DNA from: Flavobacteriales bacterium
Lineage (GTDB): Bacteria; Bacteroidota; Bacteroidia; Flavobacteriales_D; Sanyastnellaceae
Assembly (NCBI GenBank): GCA_029245065.1
Contig: JAQWQB010000046.1
Coordinates: 1-62,637 of the forward strand
Direction: 5' to 3'
Length of the DNA: 62,637 nt
Notes under the pieces: model-generated
The model's input: only the letters and a program-made list of their open reading frames with translations
Told to the model about the DNA's origin: nothing
Databases searched by the model: none
Shown: positions 39,375 to 50,006 of the stretch, one piece after another
How positions within the stretch are numbered: the first letter of the stretch is position 1
Layout: each line of letters begins with the position of its first letter
Translations under genes and position numbers: made by a program

Positions 39375-40400
39375 TTAAAACAACCCGGTAACATCTTCTC
39401 CTTCCACTACTTTAAGAAGGATTACTAGTGAGATAGAAACCACCAATCCGATAGCGGCTTTACCGATGTCTGAGAAAATCATGTTTCTCAATTTACCGTT
39501 TGGTTTCGGACCAATTTTAATTCTGATGGCGAGTTCTCTACCAGCCAGCAACCCGAGAAACACCCACGTGGTGCTCATGGGTAATTTCGCTTCCCATAAC
39601 CCCAGAATGTTCTGTTTGAAAATCAGGAGAACCACTCCATAAATAAGGTCTATGAAGGTGGCACTTCGGATATCTGCTGTATTGGTTTTTGACGATACAA
39701 TTCCTTGAATAGCTCCCCCTCTGACGTAGAATATGTAAGCGAGTAAGCCAAGAATGATTACCATTGCCAAGCCGAACATTCCTGCAGAAAGCTCTTCCGG
39801 TCTACCGAGGTAGATGAAGATATTGGCAAGATCTTGGGAAAGCCATTGTGTCCAAAGAAAACCAGTTGAAAGCCATTGCGCGCCTGTCCAAAAGCGTCTG
39901 GATTGCCAAAAGGGGGCGGCACCAGACAACAAGGGTTTCTCCTGAAATTTCTTCTCCAGCGCCTTTGAAATCAACAGGTAGATCACGATCGCAAAAGCGA
40001 AAGCTAACGCATAACCGAGTAGCGACTTGAATAGCATTCCTGGGAGGCTTTTCGTTGAGAAAAACGAAAGAATGAGAAATGTTGTTGAGACCGGTATTCC
40101 CCACCTGGTGATGAAAAGAAGAATCAGGGGCGGAAGAATGTACCACCAACTCAATGTATCAGGAATATTGATTTTGTCTAGTCGGTCGAAGCAAACATCG
40201 TCTCCTCCAAGGAAACCACCGTAACCTGTGAAACCCAAAACAAGCACCACAGAAAGGATCCCTCCTGCGTAGAGCCACAACACCCACCAAGGACGTCGTT
40301 CGTTGGAAGTCAGGAAGGTACCGAGTGTTTGAATCACATCGTTCCCGACAACAGAGTAGGCTGCCAAAGCAAACCCAAGAATCATGATTAACATTTCCAT
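39375..40400 (-). CDS. Polytopic membrane protein related to PiT phosphate permeases
   Basis: 341 residues with about 8 hydrophobic helices. Near the N-terminus SVVGNDVIQTLGTFLTS resembles the GxNDxxxxxG signature of the PiT inorganic phosphate permease family, and near the C-terminus LWEAKLPMSTTWVFLGLLAGRELAI resembles the second repeat, although the second signature is degenerate. RWGIPVSTTFLILSFFSTKSLP also fits this fold (PVSTT). True transport activity is uncertain. It is convergent with tyrS, and the gene upstream on this strand is a lipoprotein 152 nt away. Confidence 0.65.
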   Translation of the reverse strand: MEMLIMILGFALAAYSVVGNDVIQTLGTFLTSNERRPWWVLWLYAGGILSVVLVLGFTGYGGFLGGDDVCFDRLDKINIPDTLSWWYILPPLILLFITRWGIPVSTTFLILSFFSTKSLPGMLFKSLLGYALAFAFAIVIYLLISKALEKKFQEKPLLSGAAPFWQSRRFWTGAQWLSTGFLWTQWLSQDLANIFIYLGRPEELSAGMFGLAMVIILGLLAYIFYVRGGAIQGIVSSKTNTADIRSATFIDLIYGVVLLIFKQNILGLWEAKLPMSTTWVFLGLLAGRELAIRIKIGPKPNGKLRNMIFSDIGKAAIGLVVSISLVILLKVVEGEDVTGLF

Positions 40401-42113: not shown

Positions 42114-42614
42114 ATGAAGCAAAGTAGGAACGTATTTATGACCGTAATTTTGGCATCTCTTGCATTGGCAGGTTGCCTTGATCCTATCCAGTATCCTGAT
42201 GAACCTGTTATTTCCTTCATCAGTTTGGAAACCGGTCAAACTGGGACATTGACCATTGGCTTTACAGATGGGGACGGAAATATTGGCTTGGCCCAAGGAG
42301 ACACGCTCGCACCCTTCTGTCCTGATACGTGCGAATTTTACTACAACCTCTTTCTCGAATACTACGAACTTCAAAATGGAGAGTGGACTCACATACCACT
42401 AGATCCAGAGTTGGGACAAGTTCCTTTTTATTACCGCGTTCCGGAAGTGACGCCTACAGGACAGAACCAATCGTTGAATGGGGAAATTGAAATTGACATG
42501 CCGGCATACTTCCTAATTACGGATTTCGACACCTGCCGATTTGAGATTAAACTGGTTGATAGAAGCTTTAACGAATCGAACATCGAGTTGACAAACTCTT
42601 TCGTCAAGCCTTAA
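42114..42614 (+). CDS. Lipoprotein with acidic beta-rich domain
   Basis: 166 residues from ATG 42114; the frame opens earlier at TTG 42063, but the ATG places a lipoprotein signal with LAGC. The mature part starts LDPIQYPDEPVISFISLETGQTGTLTIGFTDGDGNIG, a beta-rich stretch reminiscent of Ig-like or cadherin-type domains with a DGDGNIG calcium-like loop. Two Cys pairs (FCPDTCEF) are present. Convergent with the Na/Pi transporter, sharing TTAA at the stops. Function unknown. Confidence 0.7.
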   Translation: MKQSRNVFMTVILASLALAGCLDPIQYPDEPVISFISLETGQTGTLTIGFTDGDGNIGLAQGDTLAPFCPDTCEFYYNLFLEYYELQNGEWTHIPLDPELGQVPFYYRVPEVTPTGQNQSLNGEIEIDMPAYFLITDFDTCRFEIKLVDRSFNESNIELTNSFVKP

Positions 42615-44293
42615 AAATCTCCGGAGAATCCTTCCGAGATGGAGACTACGTGATCGGCGATTTCCTCCATTGCAGTGAACGTATCACTGTAGAAAATCCC
42701 ACTTTCGAGAGAGTACCTGCCTTTTGCAACGTCCTTTAAGTGCTTTCGCTTAAGGTCGTTTCTAAGCTCATTGATTTCCTTCTCTTTTTCTTGCGCAATT
42801 TGAACATCTAGACCGTCGCCATCGTCGCCCAAGTTCGCATACATGATGTCGAACGCTTCCTTGAGCAGTTCCAACATGTCTTTCAAATTCTGGCGTTGTT
42901 TCGGTACGAAGTAAACTTTCTTCAGATTCTTACTTTCCAGGTTCATGGCTATTTGCAGGTACAAATCCCCAATACGCTCTAAATCGTTCGTAGCGCCCAT
43001 GAGTCCTCTTACACGAACCGAAGTGCTTGGAGACATCTCTTCCTTTGAAAGATCTGTCAAGTAATTCGCCACTTCCATTTCGTACTTATCTGTTATCTCC
43101 TCAGCCTCTTTGATCTCATCCAAGAGCACTTTCTTCTCAACCGGGTCAGACACGTCCAAGAGCCTTGAAATCATCTGATTCATAGACGATGTAATACGTG
43201 CGTACCTTCGCATTTCTTTGTGTGCCTCCAACAAAGCTAACTCTGGCGTACCTACTACCCCAGCACCAATGTATTCTAGTTTAAAGGCATCCCCACCTAC
43301 TTTTTGCCTCACTAATCTTCCCGCCATTTTAATAATGAAATCGGTAAAACCAATGAGTAAGACCATGTTCAAGACATTGAAGGTGGTGTGAAACAAAGCC
43401 ACAACAACTGGTCCTGACGAGGCTCCAAGTACCGTTTGATCGCCTACAGTATTGGCGTAAATTGAAGAGAGTCCCTGCAAGAAATAAGGAAGTACTGGTA
43501 ACATCCACAGCACCCCTACGATGTTAAAAATCAAGTGAGCTCTGGCCGCCTTCTTCGCATGGCTGTTCGCCACTACTGCGGCAAAATTGGCGGTCACTGT
43601 AGTCCCTATGTTCTCGCCAAGCACCATGGCCGCAGCCAACTCAAGTGTAATTATGTTACTAGAGAGTAGTGCTAGTGTGAGCGCAATAGCGGCTGAACTA
43701 GACTGAATTACAATGGTGACAAGACTACCTAAAATGACGAATAGAAAGATAGACAGGTAACCCAGTTCAGAGAAATTGCCGATAAACTCTTCAAATGCCG
43801 GATTCTCTTTGAGGGTTGGAACAACATTCTGAAGCAGTGATAATCCAATGAACAAAATGGCGAACCCGATAAAGACCTCTCCTGTATTTCTGAGTTTTTC
43901 GTTCTTAAGAAACAGGAATGGCAACGTTAGCGCAATCAAAGGCAGCGCTACTTCTGTTACACTAAACTTCCCAAGTGCCAGTGCAATGAGCCAAGCGGTC
44001 ACTGTCGTACCGATGTTCGCACCCATTATGACGCCAAATGCTTCGCGTAACTGCAGGAGGCCCGCGTTTACAAAACTCACCACCATCACCGTAGTTGCCG
44101 AAGAAGACTGCAGCACAGAGGTTGTTGCAAGTCCGGTAAAGATTGCTCTTCCCTGACTACGGGTCATGGCGTTCAAAATCTTCCTCATGGATGCACCTCC
44201 TGCACGTTGAACACCTTCGCTCATGACCTTCATCCCGTACAGGAAAAGTCCTAATGCGCCGATAACGCTCAATATGTTATATAAAATGTCCAT
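42611..44293 (-). CDS. Na/Pi cotransporter family protein
   Basis: Sodium-coupled phosphate transporter of the NptA/PNaS type. ATG 44293 gives 560 residues. Two inverted repeats carry the QSSSA motifs (VLQSSSATTVMVVSF and VIQSSSAAIALTLAL), the Na/Pi core. The C-terminal 200 residues form a PhoU-like helical domain (GLMGATNDLERIGDLYLQIA), typical of the bacterial branch. Upstream, a TTAACA-N5-TTAATA pair sits 25 nt beyond a possible -7 element (TAGTTTG, 44324-44318), the place for an OmpR-type activator. Phosphate regulation is inferred. Confidence 0.93.
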   Translation of the reverse strand: MDILYNILSVIGALGLFLYGMKVMSEGVQRAGGASMRKILNAMTRSQGRAIFTGLATTSVLQSSSATTVMVVSFVNAGLLQLREAFGVIMGANIGTTVTAWLIALALGKFSVTEVALPLIALTLPFLFLKNEKLRNTGEVFIGFAILFIGLSLLQNVVPTLKENPAFEEFIGNFSELGYLSIFLFVILGSLVTIVIQSSSAAIALTLALLSSNIITLELAAAMVLGENIGTTVTANFAAVVANSHAKKAARAHLIFNIVGVLWMLPVLPYFLQGLSSIYANTVGDQTVLGASSGPVVVALFHTTFNVLNMVLLIGFTDFIIKMAGRLVRQKVGGDAFKLEYIGAGVVGTPELALLEAHKEMRRYARITSSMNQMISRLLDVSDPVEKKVLLDEIKEAEEITDKYEMEVANYLTDLSKEEMSPSTSVRVRGLMGATNDLERIGDLYLQIAMNLESKNLKKVYFVPKQRQNLKDMLELLKEAFDIMYANLGDDGDGLDVQIAQEKEKEINELRNDLKRKHLKDVAKGRYSLESGIFYSDTFTAMEEIADHVVSISEGFSGDF

Positions 44294-44348
44294 AAAAATT
44301 TGGAGTAGGCAAATTGACAAACTACATGTGAAAGAAAATCACCCTATA

Positions 44349-44367
44349 TATTAACCTAATGTTAAGC
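44349..44367 (-). promoter_or_regulatory. 11-nt-period repeat upstream of the Na/Pi cotransporter
   Basis: On the minus strand TTAACA (44365-44360) and TTAATA (44354-44349) are exactly 11 nt apart, separated by TTAGG. The GCTTAACATT-R-GGTTAA core also occurs at 49369-49384 upstream of the 1403-residue secreted protein. Tandem repeats with an 11-nt period are the form of Pho boxes in Proteobacteria and Firmicutes. Confidence 0.4.
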
Positions 44368-44500
44368 ATTTCCAATAACATAGCACGTAACTTTCTAAGT
44401 GAATTTACCGTAAACCATTCATTACAAGACACTAAGACCACTCGTATGTTACGTAAGTGTTAATTTTTTATTACCTTAGCATTACTGAAGAACGAAAATT

Positions 44501-44917
44501 ATGAGGGCAGCGATTACATTATTATTCCTTTTTGGCATCTATTCAGCTGATTGTCAGGAATTCATCAAGATCAACGATCAGATTTGCACCACCGACAGTG
44601 TTGCATATACTGGATACTATAGAACATATCATTCTAACGGACAGTCCAAGGCACTTTATCATTTCAACGAAGGAAGACTTGACCAAGGCGTATTCTTTTA
44701 CAATGAAGACGGCTCATTGGCTATTACGGGCTTCTATAAAGGAAACAAACCAGATGGTTTATGGCAGAGTTGGGACAGCAAAGGAAATGTAGTTTCTAGC
44801 GCTCGCTATGACCGCGGTAAAAAGACTGGTGAATGGTTCATTAGAATGGAACACGACACACCGGGCTATTCTTTAAGCTATGTAGACAACAAGCTTACTG
44901 AGGCAAAAAAAGAATAA
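44501..44917 (+). CDS. Secreted MORN/YwqK-like repeat protein
   Basis: 138 residues with a signal peptide (MRAAITLLFLFGIYSADC). The mature part consists of short beta-hairpin repeats with the pattern YxxGxxxGxWxxWDxxGxV: GYYRTYHSNGQSKALYHF, GVFFYNEDGSLAITGFYK, GLWQSWDSKGNVVSSARYD, GEWFIRMEHDT. These are MORN-like or YwqK-antitoxin-like repeats, common in Bacteroidota. No toxin gene is adjacent, so a toxin-antitoxin role is not supported. It ends in a strong terminator shared with the convergent large gene. Confidence 0.8.
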   Translation: MRAAITLLFLFGIYSADCQEFIKINDQICTTDSVAYTGYYRTYHSNGQSKALYHFNEGRLDQGVFFYNEDGSLAITGFYKGNKPDGLWQSWDSKGNVVSSARYDRGKKTGEWFIRMEHDTPGYSLSYVDNKLTEAKKE

Positions 44918-44994: not shown

Positions 44995-47900
44995 TTATTC
45001 GCAAGCGCTACCAAAAGCTCCAAGGAACTGAAGTAAATCTGTTGCGTTAATCAATCCGTCTCCGTTCAAGTCTTCTGGACAAGATGAAGTGAAGATACAA
45101 CTACCATCATCAACTGTTGCAGTTGCGCTGTAGTTGTCTGCAGATACATATGTACATCCTTGGCAAGAAGTAGACTCGCAGCTTCCGTCATCAGAAGTTG
45201 CAAGATCATTGTAGTTACAAGCCGTTGGATCTGTACAACCAGCAATTAGCTGAGAGTTCATTGCTCCAGGCGTTCCGAAAAGAACGAATGAGCTTTGCCA
45301 GTTTGCAGGATCTGTGTTATCCAATGCTGGGTCAATCAATTCAAGTGACGTACAAGATCCGTCTGGTTCGAAAGGCCAAGGAGTAGAATCTGAGTAAGTC
45401 ACTGTATCAATCACGTTACCGAATCCGTCTTCAAGCGCTACAGTTGCTCCTGTATTGCTCAAGTTTCCGAATTCCATTTCGAATACCTGGTATCCGTTTC
45501 CAGCATACGTTGCAGCATTTGTTGCTACAATGATGTACTCTCCAGCAGCCATTGACGCCCCGTCAGGGAATGTGAATGTGAAACCAGCGTTGAACGTGAA
45601 TCCTGAAAGATCAACAATTGTTGCTTCAGCATTGTAAATCTCTACGTACTCGTAGTCAAGATCATCACCTTGAACAACGCAAGGGTTGTAGTGAAGTTCG
45701 TTGATCACCAAGTTTGGAAGTGTGAAGTAACATGAACCATCGTCTAGTGTAGCAAGCGCATTGTAGTTCAATGCTGCTACATCTGTACATCCACTGATTA
45801 CACATGAACCATCGTCTTGCGTTGCCGCAGGGTCATAGTTGTCAGCAGCAGGATCAGTACATCCAAGGATGTTTGCACAAGAACCATCATCCACAACCGC
45901 TAGAGGATCGTAGTTAGGGAATGCATTGTCTGTACAACCATAACGCTTCGCGTCGTTCAAATCACGTGGCTCCAATTTCCAGTTACCAAATGAGTAGTAG
46001 TTAGGACCAGTTACTTCGTAAGTGATACCAAGATCTACTGGAGTCAATGCGATACCTAGGTCATCTACGTATGCAGGACCAGAACCATCGTCAAGTACCC
46101 ATTCTCCAAATCCAAGATCACTGTTTGACACCTGACCGAATACAAGAAGAAGAACTCCTTCCCATTGCTCCTGGTTGATGTCGTTTGTAGGAAGTGCTTC
46201 AGCAGCTGGAAGTGGGTTACCACTTGTAAGTACTGCCGCAGAAGAAGAAGTGATGATTGTCAATCCGAATGATTCAGTCACAATTCCTGTCACGTCTACT
46301 TCGTCTCCAAGCACAACACCAGCTCCTTCAACCCATATTCCAGAGAAACCACCTGTTCCGTCCTGGATAGTGTAGAGGTTAGAAGGTGTGTAAACCGCAG
46401 TTACGATTCCGTTGGTTGTTACCAATTCACCTGCTTTGTTTGAATCACCATCAACATCTACATCAGACTGAATCTCAGAGATTGTGTAGCTAGTTGAAGG
46501 TGGTGCTTCAGAATTCATTGCTCCAGGAGTTCCGTTTGGAACGTAAGATGCTTGCCAGTTCGCTGGGTCAGCGTTGTCTAAAGCTGGATCAATCAATTCA
46601 AGTGAAGGACAAGTTCCATTTGCAGCTGAAGGCCAAGCTCCACCTGTACCATAAGTTACTTCGTCAATCACGTTTGCGAAACTGTCAGAAAGCTGAACTA
46701 GCTCTCCACTGTTGTTCACGCCTCCAGAAGTCATTTCGAACACTTGGTATCCGTTTCCTGTGTAAGAAGCAGCATTTACGGCAATGATGATGTATTCACC
46801 AGCAGCCATTGAAGCTCCCATTGGGAATGCAAATTCAAAACCTGCAGAGAAAAGCAAGCCTTCTAAGTTCACAACACCTGCATCAGCATTGTAGATCTCA
46901 ACGAATTCGAAATCAGTATCAACTCCTTGATCTGCACATGGGTTGTAGTGAATCTCATTGATCACTAGGTTAGGCAATGTGAAGTAACAAGAACCATCGT
47001 CAACGTTTGCCATTGCATCAAAGTTCAATGCACCGGCGTCAGTACAACCTAAGTATTGACAAGAACCATCATCAACAGTAGCTGCTGGATCAAAGTTATC
47101 AGCGTCAAAGTCTGTACATCCAGGAACGTTTCCACAAGAACCGTCATCAATTACAGCGTCTGCATCATAGTTAGGGAAAGCAATATCTGTACATCCCCAT
47201 TTCTGAGCATCTGCAGCATCTCTTGGCTCTAATTTGAATGCACCGAAAGAGTAGTACAAAGGACCAGTCAACGTGTAAGTATCAGGAACAGTCAAAGGAG
47301 CAAGAAGTAAACCGAGGTCATCTACGTTCAATTCACCTGTACCGTCATTTACTCCGAACTCACCGTTTCCTAAATCTGCAGTAGAAACATCTCCAGTTAC
47401 TTCAAGAAGAACTCCTTCCCATTGCTCCTGAGCTGCGTCAAGTGTTGAAACCACTTCAACTGCAGGCAATGCATTTGCAGAAGAGTTGATTACAGCAGAA
47501 GCTCCAGAAACAAGCGTTAAGTCAAAGCTTTCAATGATCAATCCAGTTACGGTCACATCGTCTCCAATTGCTACACCTGCACCTTCGGCCCAGATTCCTG
47601 AAAAAGCACCCGTACCATCTTGAACAGTGTAAAGGTTACTTGCTGCGTAAACGGCTGTAACAATTCCACTCAATTCTACTACGGTTCCTTCACTTTGAGA
47701 ATTCCCATCAACATCGATGTTTGATTGCACAGCGAAAATAGTTGAAGGAGTTCCTACACATGGAATAGTTGTGTTAACAGCTCCAGGTGTACCAGCGTAA
47801 CCACATGATGCGTGCCAGTTAGCACCGTCATTGTTATCTAGAGAAGGGTCATTTAATTCAAGTGTTGGACCTTGACCATCAGGACTCACAGCCCAAGGAG

Positions 47901-49206
47901 CTGCATCGTCATAAGCAACCTCATCAACAACGTTTGCAGCAGCATCAAAAAGTGATACCGTTTCACCGCCGTTTCCTAGTCCGCCAGAAGTCATTTCAAA
48001 TACTTGGTATCCGTTTCCAGTGTAGAAAGGTGCGTTAATAGCAACTACAATGTACTCTCCGGGAGCAATAGAAGCTCCAACAGGGAAAGTGAATACAACA
48101 CCACCCATTGTGTAACCTTCAAGGTCTACTGCAACGATGTCATTGTTATAAATCTCAATGAATTCATAATCTAGGTCGTCAAACAATGGAAAAGGACCTG
48201 GATTGTAGTGAATTTCGTTAATCACAAGATCAAAAGTAGGTGCTAACATCCCTGCACAGTTGCACATTGCATCTACCATATCCTCTGTTGTAGCAGGATC
48301 AAGGTCATCACAAGGAGCACCAATGATTAGACAACTTCCGTCATCAATCGTTGCAGTTAAGTCAAAGTTACAAGCAGCACCGTCAGTGCAACCTAGGCAA
48401 GTGAAATCACAAGAACCATCATCAATTGTTGCAGTCATATCGTAGTTACAAGCTCCGGCGTCTGTACAACCTAGGCAAGTAAAATCACAAGAACCGTCGT
48501 CTGTGGTAGCAGCTGCGTTGTAGTTACACGCGCCAGCGTCTGTACATCCAGGGATAGCTACAGAAGCATCGTATACACCGATGAAATCAAATGCGAATTC
48601 CTCACTTGCAGAGTTTGCTTGTGCAACAATTCTAATTTCCAATGACGCTCCAGTTGGGATAGAAGCAGAGAACTGCGCAAAGGCAGTTGTCAATGCGATA
48701 TCGCCAAGTCCAGAGTTGTCAGAATCAAATCCAAGTCCTGTATTTGAACCAGCAGCCATTCCTGTGAATGTCATAGCGGTTACCCATCCAGCTGCGTCTA
48801 GATTGTATTCAACACGTACAAAATCTGAATCGTCCCATCCGTCTCCAGGGTTACCTGTTGCGAAAAGACCACGAACTTCAAGAGCAGCAACTCCTGTTAC
48901 ATCAATTGCTGGAGTGAATGTAAGTGTCTTAGATGTTAAAAGGTCACCTCCGTTATCATCCAAGTCTTCTCCTGCCCAGAAAAACCCACCGTCTGCACCA
49001 GAATAAGCTGCTGCAACGTTACCGATGTTTGAACCATCTGTTCTAGCGAAGTGATCGCTAAATCCGTCATTAAAGGTGTTAGAAGAAGTGTAGCTTACGC
49101 CTTCACCGTCCGTTTCGAAGCTCTCAGACCAAATTTGAGCCTGGGCAGTAGATACCGCAAGCACCATTAGGATTAATCCGAAAGCACTCAAGATTTGTTG
49201 TCTCAT
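44995..49206 (-). CDS. Giant secreted protein: lamin-tail domains, GCTD repeats, EF-hand end
   Basis: 1403 residues. Signal peptide at 1-23, then a lectin-like N-terminal part (25-215). There are three lamin-tail-type domains (about 325-480, 745-897, 1164-1318), each starting LVINExHYNP. Two beta-rich OB-like regions (about 500-665, 910-1080; GIVTAVY, NLYTxQDGTGxFSGIW) follow the first and second. Eleven copies of a two-cysteine repeat GCTD...NY...DDGSC are grouped 3, 3, 3, 2 between them. The end has one perfect EF-hand/dockerin loop (DLNGDGLINATD, 1379-1390) framed by Cys1376 and Cys1402, and no T9SS A or B signal. No nuclease or other catalytic domain is visible. Confidence 0.9.
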   Translation of the reverse strand: MRQQILSAFGLILMVLAVSTAQAQIWSESFETDGEGVSYTSSNTFNDGFSDHFARTDGSNIGNVAAAYSGADGGFFWAGEDLDDNGGDLLTSKTLTFTPAIDVTGVAALEVRGLFATGNPGDGWDDSDFVRVEYNLDAAGWVTAMTFTGMAAGSNTGLGFDSDNSGLGDIALTTAFAQFSASIPTGASLEIRIVAQANSASEEFAFDFIGVYDASVAIPGCTDAGACNYNAAATTDDGSCDFTCLGCTDAGACNYDMTATIDDGSCDFTCLGCTDGAACNFDLTATIDDGSCLIIGAPCDDLDPATTEDMVDAMCNCAGMLAPTFDLVINEIHYNPGPFPLFDDLDYEFIEIYNNDIVAVDLEGYTMGGVVFTFPVGASIAPGEYIVVAINAPFYTGNGYQVFEMTSGGLGNGGETVSLFDAAANVVDEVAYDDAAPWAVSPDGQGPTLELNDPSLDNNDGANWHASCGYAGTPGAVNTTIPCVGTPSTIFAVQSNIDVDGNSQSEGTVVELSGIVTAVYAASNLYTVQDGTGAFSGIWAEGAGVAIGDDVTVTGLIIESFDLTLVSGASAVINSSANALPAVEVVSTLDAAQEQWEGVLLEVTGDVSTADLGNGEFGVNDGTGELNVDDLGLLLAPLTVPDTYTLTGPLYYSFGAFKLEPRDAADAQKWGCTDIAFPNYDADAVIDDGSCGNVPGCTDFDADNFDPAATVDDGSCQYLGCTDAGALNFDAMANVDDGSCYFTLPNLVINEIHYNPCADQGVDTDFEFVEIYNADAGVVNLEGLLFSAGFEFAFPMGASMAAGEYIIIAVNAASYTGNGYQVFEMTSGGVNNSGELVQLSDSFANVIDEVTYGTGGAWPSAANGTCPSLELIDPALDNADPANWQASYVPNGTPGAMNSEAPPSTSYTISEIQSDVDVDGDSNKAGELVTTNGIVTAVYTPSNLYTIQDGTGGFSGIWVEGAGVVLGDEVDVTGIVTESFGLTIITSSSAAVLTSGNPLPAAEALPTNDINQEQWEGVLLLVFGQVSNSDLGFGEWVLDDGSGPAYVDDLGIALTPVDLGITYEVTGPNYYSFGNWKLEPRDLNDAKRYGCTDNAFPNYDPLAVVDDGSCANILGCTDPAADNYDPAATQDDGSCVISGCTDVAALNYNALATLDDGSCYFTLPNLVINELHYNPCVVQGDDLDYEYVEIYNAEATIVDLSGFTFNAGFTFTFPDGASMAAGEYIIVATNAATYAGNGYQVFEMEFGNLSNTGATVALEDGFGNVIDTVTYSDSTPWPFEPDGSCTSLELIDPALDNTDPANWQSSFVLFGTPGAMNSQLIAGCTDPTACNYNDLATSDDGSCESTSCQGCTYVSADNYSATATVDDGSCIFTSSCPEDLNGDGLINATDLLQFLGAFGSACE

Positions 49207-49260: not shown

Positions 49261-49268
49261 CAAATTTA
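49261..49268 (-). promoter_or_regulatory. Candidate -7 element of the giant secreted protein gene
   Basis: TAAATTTG on the minus strand is an exact match, 55 nt before the ATG. The -33 position is not conserved. Confidence 0.4.
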
Positions 49269-49358: not shown

Positions 49359-49386
49359 TTAACAATGGCTTAACATTGGGTTAACA
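49359..49386. promoter_or_regulatory. Three TTAACA direct repeats with 11-nt period
   Basis: TTAACA occurs at 49359-49364, 49370-49375 and 49381-49386, each separated by exactly 5 nt. The site is in the 200-nt non-coding stretch between rnhB (ends 49407) and the giant secreted protein gene (starts 49206); apart from the -7 candidate I see nothing else there. A related pair precedes the Na/Pi cotransporter. It is upstream of the giant gene but about 90 nt beyond its best -7 candidate. Confidence 0.45.
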
Positions 49387-49406
49387 TTATTCAGTGTCTG
49401 AAACGA

Positions 49407-50006
49407 CTAGAATAGAGTTGTTTGAGTAGAAAGAAGACGGAAAGTCATTCGATGATACGAAGAAGCACCATGTGTCTGTATGGCACTTCGGTGCGCAACC
49501 GTAGGATACCCTTTATTTTTATCCCAGGCATACGCTGGAAATTCAAGATGGAGGTTCTCCATAATTTCATCCCTTACTGTTTTGGCCAGAATACTGGCTG
49601 CAGCAATGCTTTGAAATTTAGAATCTCCTTTGACTACACATGTTTCTGCTATGTTAGGATAGGGGCGAAACCGGTTTCCATCGATAAGCAAATGATCGGG
49701 TACAACTTGCAACTGATCCACAGCTCGGTGCATTGCCAAAAAGGACGCTTGGAGAATATTGATGTCATCAATCTCCGTGTGAGATACAACCCCAACTCCC
49801 CATGCGAGCGCTTTTTCTTCTATGATGGGTCTTAGAACTTGACGTCGTGCTTCTGTCAACTTTTTGGAATCATCCAAGCCGGGTATGCGCACTTTTGGGT
49901 TTAAGATCACTGCAGCCGCCACTACTGGACCAGCAAGGCATCCTCTTCCCGCTTCATCACATCCTGCTTCCAAGATCCCTTTGTTTAAAAATCGCTTGAG
50001 TCCCAT
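49407..50006 (-). CDS. rnhB: Ribonuclease HII
   Basis: Removes ribonucleotides and RNA primers from DNA. 199 residues. The active-site DEAG motif is GCDEAGRGCLAGPVVAAAVIL (D17, E18), with further acidic residues in DHLLIDGNRF and conserved IAAASILAKTVRD. GYPTVAHRSAIQTHGASSYHR is the substrate-binding end. The ATG directly follows the glycosyltransferase stop (TAA then ATG), so the two are cotranscribed. Confidence 0.96.
   Translation of the reverse strand: MGLKRFLNKGILEAGCDEAGRGCLAGPVVAAAVILNPKVRIPGLDDSKKLTEARRQVLRPIIEEKALAWGVGVVSHTEIDDINILQASFLAMHRAVDQLQVVPDHLLIDGNRFRPYPNIAETCVVKGDSKFQSIAAASILAKTVRDEIMENLHLEFPAYAWDKNKGYPTVAHRSAIQTHGASSYHRMTFRLLSTQTTLF

Follow-up and report, generated by a model that had tools for sequence, protein, structure and literature searches.

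The TTAACA repeats that recur every 11 nt in the 62,637 nt stretch of DNA analysed here (the window; contig JAQWQB010000046.1 of the Flavobacteriales assembly GCA_029245065.1, genome G000 in the following) are very likely Pho-type operators, with a regulator, an action on the promoter and a link to a giant secreted protein as proposed below. Comparative evidence supports this reading of the sequences well, and regulation of this kind is established. A sequence-only reading of the window had suggested a Pho-type operator with a period of 11 nt, and the suggestion is supported by the location of the repeats at phosphate genes and by their conservation.

The triple TTAACA-N5-TTAACA-N5-TTAACA (49359..49386, plus strand) is positioned between the RNase HII gene (49407..50006, minus strand; Pfam: PF01351) and the gene of the giant secreted protein (44995..49206, minus strand), and is about 20 nt beyond the RNase HII stop. 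Its copies at 49359-49364, 49370-49375 and 49381-49386 have a period of exactly 11 nt. Seen from the giant gene, which is encoded on the minus strand, the repeats read TGTTAA, an orientation that the sequence-only reading had left unmentioned. The core GCTTAACATTRGGTTAA is found exactly twice in the window, at 44351-44367 on the minus strand, upstream of the Na/Pi cotransporter gene, and at 49368-49384 on the plus strand. Both the exact period and the shared core had been noticed in the sequence-only reading and were confirmed. With up to three mismatches, GCTTAACATTRGGTTAA has three matches in the window against 0.37 expected, which none of 100 shuffles reached. TTAACA itself is rarer in the window than expected (30 vs 47), and a first-order model predicts 6.5e-6 period-11 TTAACA triples per window and 3.3e-4 per genome. 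One other evenly spaced hexamer triple was found in the window when periods of 7-25 were scanned, with a period of 24. In the whole genome, TTAACA-N5-TTAACA has five matches (two of them from the triple) against 0.89 expected, and the reversed pattern, used as a control, has none; outside the window, this genome was read in the stretches surrounding the matches. Exact 18-nt matches in G004, at the end of an amidase-like gene, and in G019 are without phosphate context and probably due to chance. In addition, TTAACATT-N3-CAGTGTCT at 49381-49399 in the giant-gene interval recurs with identical spacing upstream of the Na/Pi gene in G004 (L007).

The Na/Pi cotransporter with PhoU domains (42611..44293, minus strand) matches PF02690 (6.9e-58) and PF01895 (2e-13), and is above the cut-off for NF037997 and TIGR00704. 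Its promoter carries the two-copy box TTAACATTAGGTTAATA (44349..44365, minus strand), whose 11-nt phasing is kept in relatives and which reads TTAACA towards its gene, opposite to the triple with respect to the giant gene. The likely -7 element TCAATTTG (44310..44317, minus strand) follows the last TTAA of the array at 37 nt, i.e. 15 + 22, which corrects the possible -7 element of the sequence-only reading. In register between them, 15 nt before the -7 element, there is a degenerate half-site TTCACA (44327..44332, minus strand), and G011 has TTAACA at the same place. The distance from the last array TTAA (or ATAA) to the -7 element is 37 nt in G000, G011, G058, G033 and G034, and 36 nt in G035. 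A second 11-nt box, TTAACACTTACGTAACA (44447..44463, minus strand), is located in the same interval, which separates the Na/Pi gene from a divergent gene for a MORN-repeat-like secreted protein (44501..44917, plus strand; PF07661 just below cut-off), and has a counterpart in G004, G011, G058, G057 and G035. The window also encodes a PiT-like membrane protein without Pfam match (39375-40400, minus strand). No clear box was found upstream of its gene; look-alikes in G067 and G079 have an 11-nt box directly upstream.

Eight genomes of the family (G000, G004, G011, G057, G058, G033, G034 and G035) share the block of RNase HII, giant, MORN-like and Na/Pi genes in synteny. They represent five genera, and their Na/Pi proteins are about 55-66% identical to that of the window. 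A glycosyltransferase gene is also among the neighbouring genes in the window. We counted half-site pairs (at least 5 of 6 matches per half-site) in the two syntenic intergenic intervals of six representative genomes, and compared them with dinucleotide shuffles. At a spacing of 11 there are 6 and 13 pairs, compared to 0.17 and 0.45 after shuffling, and 0 of 500 shuffles reach the observed counts; the other spacings from 6 to 33 give at most 3 and 5 pairs. Clear boxes are present in the giant-gene interval of G000, G011, G058, G057 and G035, degenerate ones in G033 and G034, and in G004 the box is absent from this interval. The earlier proposal to look for the motif in relatives is thereby answered by phased repeats conserved in the syntenic intervals.

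Furthermore, we searched 114 genomes of the family for three TTAAC copies spaced by 11 nt, allowing one mismatch at most, and 53 places were listed. Among the 30 annotated places, 10 are directly before genes of PhoB-like response regulators. Eight more are at three Na/Pi genes, one of them sharing its place with a phosphate-selective porin (Pfam: PF07396), at two PiT-like transporter genes, and at one gene each for a further porin O/P, a PhoU_div protein and a metallophosphoesterase. The giant-gene interval also has such a place in G000, G011 and G058. Within 250 bp before the phoB-like gene, TTAA-TTAA pairs in 26 family genomes occur 26 times at spacing 11, 7 times at spacing 22 and 0-3 times at other spacings. 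The phoB-like promoters of 35 genomes from other families of the order give 20 pairs at spacing 11, and no other spacing exceeds 9. The phoB-like promoter of the window's own genome is CTTAACTTTCACTTAACCTCACGAGAATAGCTTTG. In G014 the phoB-like and Na/Pi genes are arranged divergently, and the interval separating them contains phased TTAA repeats. In many family genomes (L191-L200) the phoB-like gene has a short-chain dehydrogenase gene as its divergent neighbour, with a common box interval.

For the Pst transporter, the class was searched for pstC in place of PF12849 (PstS-family) genes; five clear PF12849 matches in relatives have no box, and each closely follows another short gene. Boxes such as TTAACATTAAGTTAACATAACCTTAACATT are present at some of the pst operons of the class, and in one case the sequence is TTAACATTGGGTTAA, as in the window. 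No clear box was found in many of the pst promoters examined across the class; 80 loci, mostly from distant Bacteroidales, were left out of the box analysis. The sequence-only reading had pointed to phosphate genes as the place to look, and phoB-like, Na/Pi, some pst, phosphate porin and PiT-like genes matched. The motif totals are not clearly above their reversed controls (12 vs 22 for TTAAC-N6-TTAAC, 16 vs 13 for the operator-plus-promoter pattern described below), so the evidence consists of the locations and not of the counts. A conserved triple without obvious phosphate link, TTAACGTTCTCTTAATATAGGCTTAAC, is found in one genus (L210-L213: G092, G097, G099, G100) about 300 nt before an alpha-amylase/cyclomaltodextrinase gene.

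The array also has a fixed position relative to the promoter. In 13 of 19 phoB-like promoters of the family, the last array TTAA is exactly 15 nt upstream of an element like TAnnTTTG, the known flavobacterial sigma-A -7 box (PMC9723704). The distance is 16 nt in one of the 19, and 37-38 nt, which is 15 plus about two periods, in four. The combined pattern TTAA-N7-TTAA-N11-TAnnTTTG occurs at 16 places in the 114 genomes, 12 of them before phoB-like genes and one before a gene whose product resembles PstS by eye (G114). In the window's own genome, the single match of operator plus promoter is that of the PhoB-like gene. The fixed distance is found at phoB-like and Na/Pi promoters and not at the box 49359-49386 of the giant gene.

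The candidate regulator is a PhoB-like response regulator of the OmpR family (G000:C67:8748-9404) with PF00072 and PF00486 domains, encoded next to a HisKA/HATPase kinase. Its two best families are TIGR02154 (PhoB) and NF053854 (Bacteroidota PhoB). It scores 218 bits against a cut-off of 296 and 211 bits against a cut-off of 270, respectively, and because it is below these curated cut-offs, we call it PhoB-like. Within the order, the cut-off of NF053854 is reached in just 3 of 177 genomes. The best matches of the kinase are PnpS and PhoR, and here too the scores stay below cut-off. The closest PDB structures to the DNA-binding domain of the regulator are those of E. coli PhoB. Neither PstS nor PstC was found in the window's own genome, an absence that is only probably real, as the genome is about 98% complete.

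We propose that the tandem half-sites TTAAC(A/T/C) would be bound head to tail, every 11 nt, by the C67 regulator, which would act when the PhoR-like kinase signals phosphate starvation. By analogy with E. coli PhoB, an array ending 15 nt (or 15 + 22) upstream of a TAnnTTTG-type -7 element would replace the -33 element and present the regulator to RNA polymerase, bringing the two into contact. In the window, such a box would turn on expression of the Na/Pi cotransporter, which is probably important in a genome where neither PstS nor PstC was found. The triple 49359-49386 would probably bring the giant protein into the same response, from an upstream, reversed and out-of-register position.

The giant protein has 1403 amino acids, three lamin-tail domains (LTD; Pfam: PF00932), Cys-rich DDGSC repeats and syntenic orthologues. 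No nuclease domain was detected by Pfam in the giant protein or in four orthologues. The comparison with the ExeM/NucH extracellular nuclease covers only profile positions 2-107 of 546 and gives 33.9 vs 300 bits, and Pfam finds LTD only. Three lamin-tail domains are also present in a second secreted protein of this genome, L258 (G000:C74:8025-8040), which has the 11-nt box TTAACATTAACTTAAC upstream, not in the 15-nt register. In G057, a perfect match of box plus promoter (L329, G057:C2:799044-799077) precedes the gene of a secreted protein with the Cys-rich repeats of the giant protein.

A chance repeat in AT-rich intergenic sequence would fit the genome-wide numbers of TTAAC-N6-TTAAC, which is not more common than its reversed control. 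It is nevertheless highly improbable, with only 3e-4 triples expected per genome and with phased repeats kept at phoB-like promoters and in syntenic intervals that otherwise diverge, and it was rejected by the tests of conservation and location. The repeats could also be real operators of an OmpR-family regulator, but of one other than the phosphate regulator or with a signal other than phosphate, the phosphate transporter being only one target. Candidates are an RprY-like system and, at G000:C133, the second WalR/PhoB-like system. The genome encodes six Trans_reg_C proteins, two of them RprY-like, and an exact TTAACA pair precedes an RprX/RprY-like operon at C104. Yet the C104 pair abuts the start of an oppositely directed gene, most other box places are at phosphate uptake genes, and the array-plus-promoter pattern precedes the PhoB-like gene in 12 genomes and none of the other regulator genes. 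We consider this alternative unlikely.

The control of the giant gene is a separate matter within the Pho-type reading. The sequence-only reading had a giant surface protein controlled together with the transporter. In favour of this, boxes recur in the interval in several genera; against it, the box in the window is out of register and points away from the giant gene. For this gene the best -7 element is TAAATTTG (49261..49268, minus strand), 94-116 nt after the reversed triple. The triple might instead be a Pho-type box with another function, such as driving a transcript antisense to RNase HII or blocking read-through from RNase HII, a serious possibility that we rate somewhat below even. 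The canonical direction pointing away from the giant gene, the long distance and a register between box and giant-gene -7 element that differs between genomes all agree with it. On the other side, no good -7 element was found in the antisense direction at the triple in any genome examined, for which reason an antisense promoter was rejected. Moreover, the box orientation varies at the Na/Pi gene too (G033/G034 vs G000), and the second lamin-tail gene of the genome has an upstream box. Control of the giant gene by the triple is plausible because of the conserved synteny and the recurrent boxes, and only plausible because of the orientation, distance and register of the box. It is favoured by the second lamin-tail gene with a box and by the F. 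johnsoniae proteins EndA1 and EndA2, secreted lamin-tail (PF00932) nucleases that are induced by phosphate depletion (PMC8115612). EndA1 and EndA2 carry PF04231 endonuclease domains, unlike the giant protein, in which Pfam detects no nuclease domain. A more far-reaching idea, which we put forward as tentative, is that one phosphate-starvation regulator, acting through the TTAAC 11-nt box 15 nt before TAnnTTTG, controls the whole island. In that case the giant lamin-tail protein, without nuclease domain, might be a partner of the Na/Pi transporter and, for instance, retain extracellular DNA or other phosphate-bearing polymers at the cell surface.

The E. coli PHO box (core CTGTCAT, two repeats) and the box described here are both 11-nt direct repeats, in E. 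coli with about seven conserved and four less conserved bases (PMC4415409). As in the E. coli PhoB system, the array is at a fixed distance from a promoter element, and the DNA-binding domain of the C67 regulator is closest to that of E. coli PhoB. In contrast to E. coli, the half-site is TTAAC and not TGTCA, arrays of three are common, and it is the TAnnTTTG element of Bacteroidota to which the spacing is adjusted. The B. subtilis PhoP half-site is TT(A/C/T)ACA. PhoP boxes and the cyanobacterial SphR boxes share the 11-nt tandem period and TTAACA-like half-sites with the repeats in the window, and differ in phylum, promoter type and gene set. In the SphR boxes, repeats of 8 bp are joined by a linker of 3 bp (PMC1906773). 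For B. fragilis, the part of the source considered here describes a phosphate-responsive PhoB from Bacteroidota with binding to the pstC promoter, and states no box sequence (PMC3547664); unlike B. fragilis, the window's genome has no Pst transporter that we could find. In the open-licence literature searched, we found no stated Pho-box sequence for Bacteroidota, though the phosphate response has been studied there, nor did we find a statement of the rule of sequence and spacing that holds in this group.

If the giant gene is controlled by the triple, the reversed box would mean that the regulator is also able to work at a distance. A concrete consensus in which the promoter spacing is fixed, and which can be applied to other genomes of the order, would make phosphate regulons predictable in abundant aquatic and gut bacteria, and lamin-tail surface proteins would gain a testable role in phosphorus acquisition.
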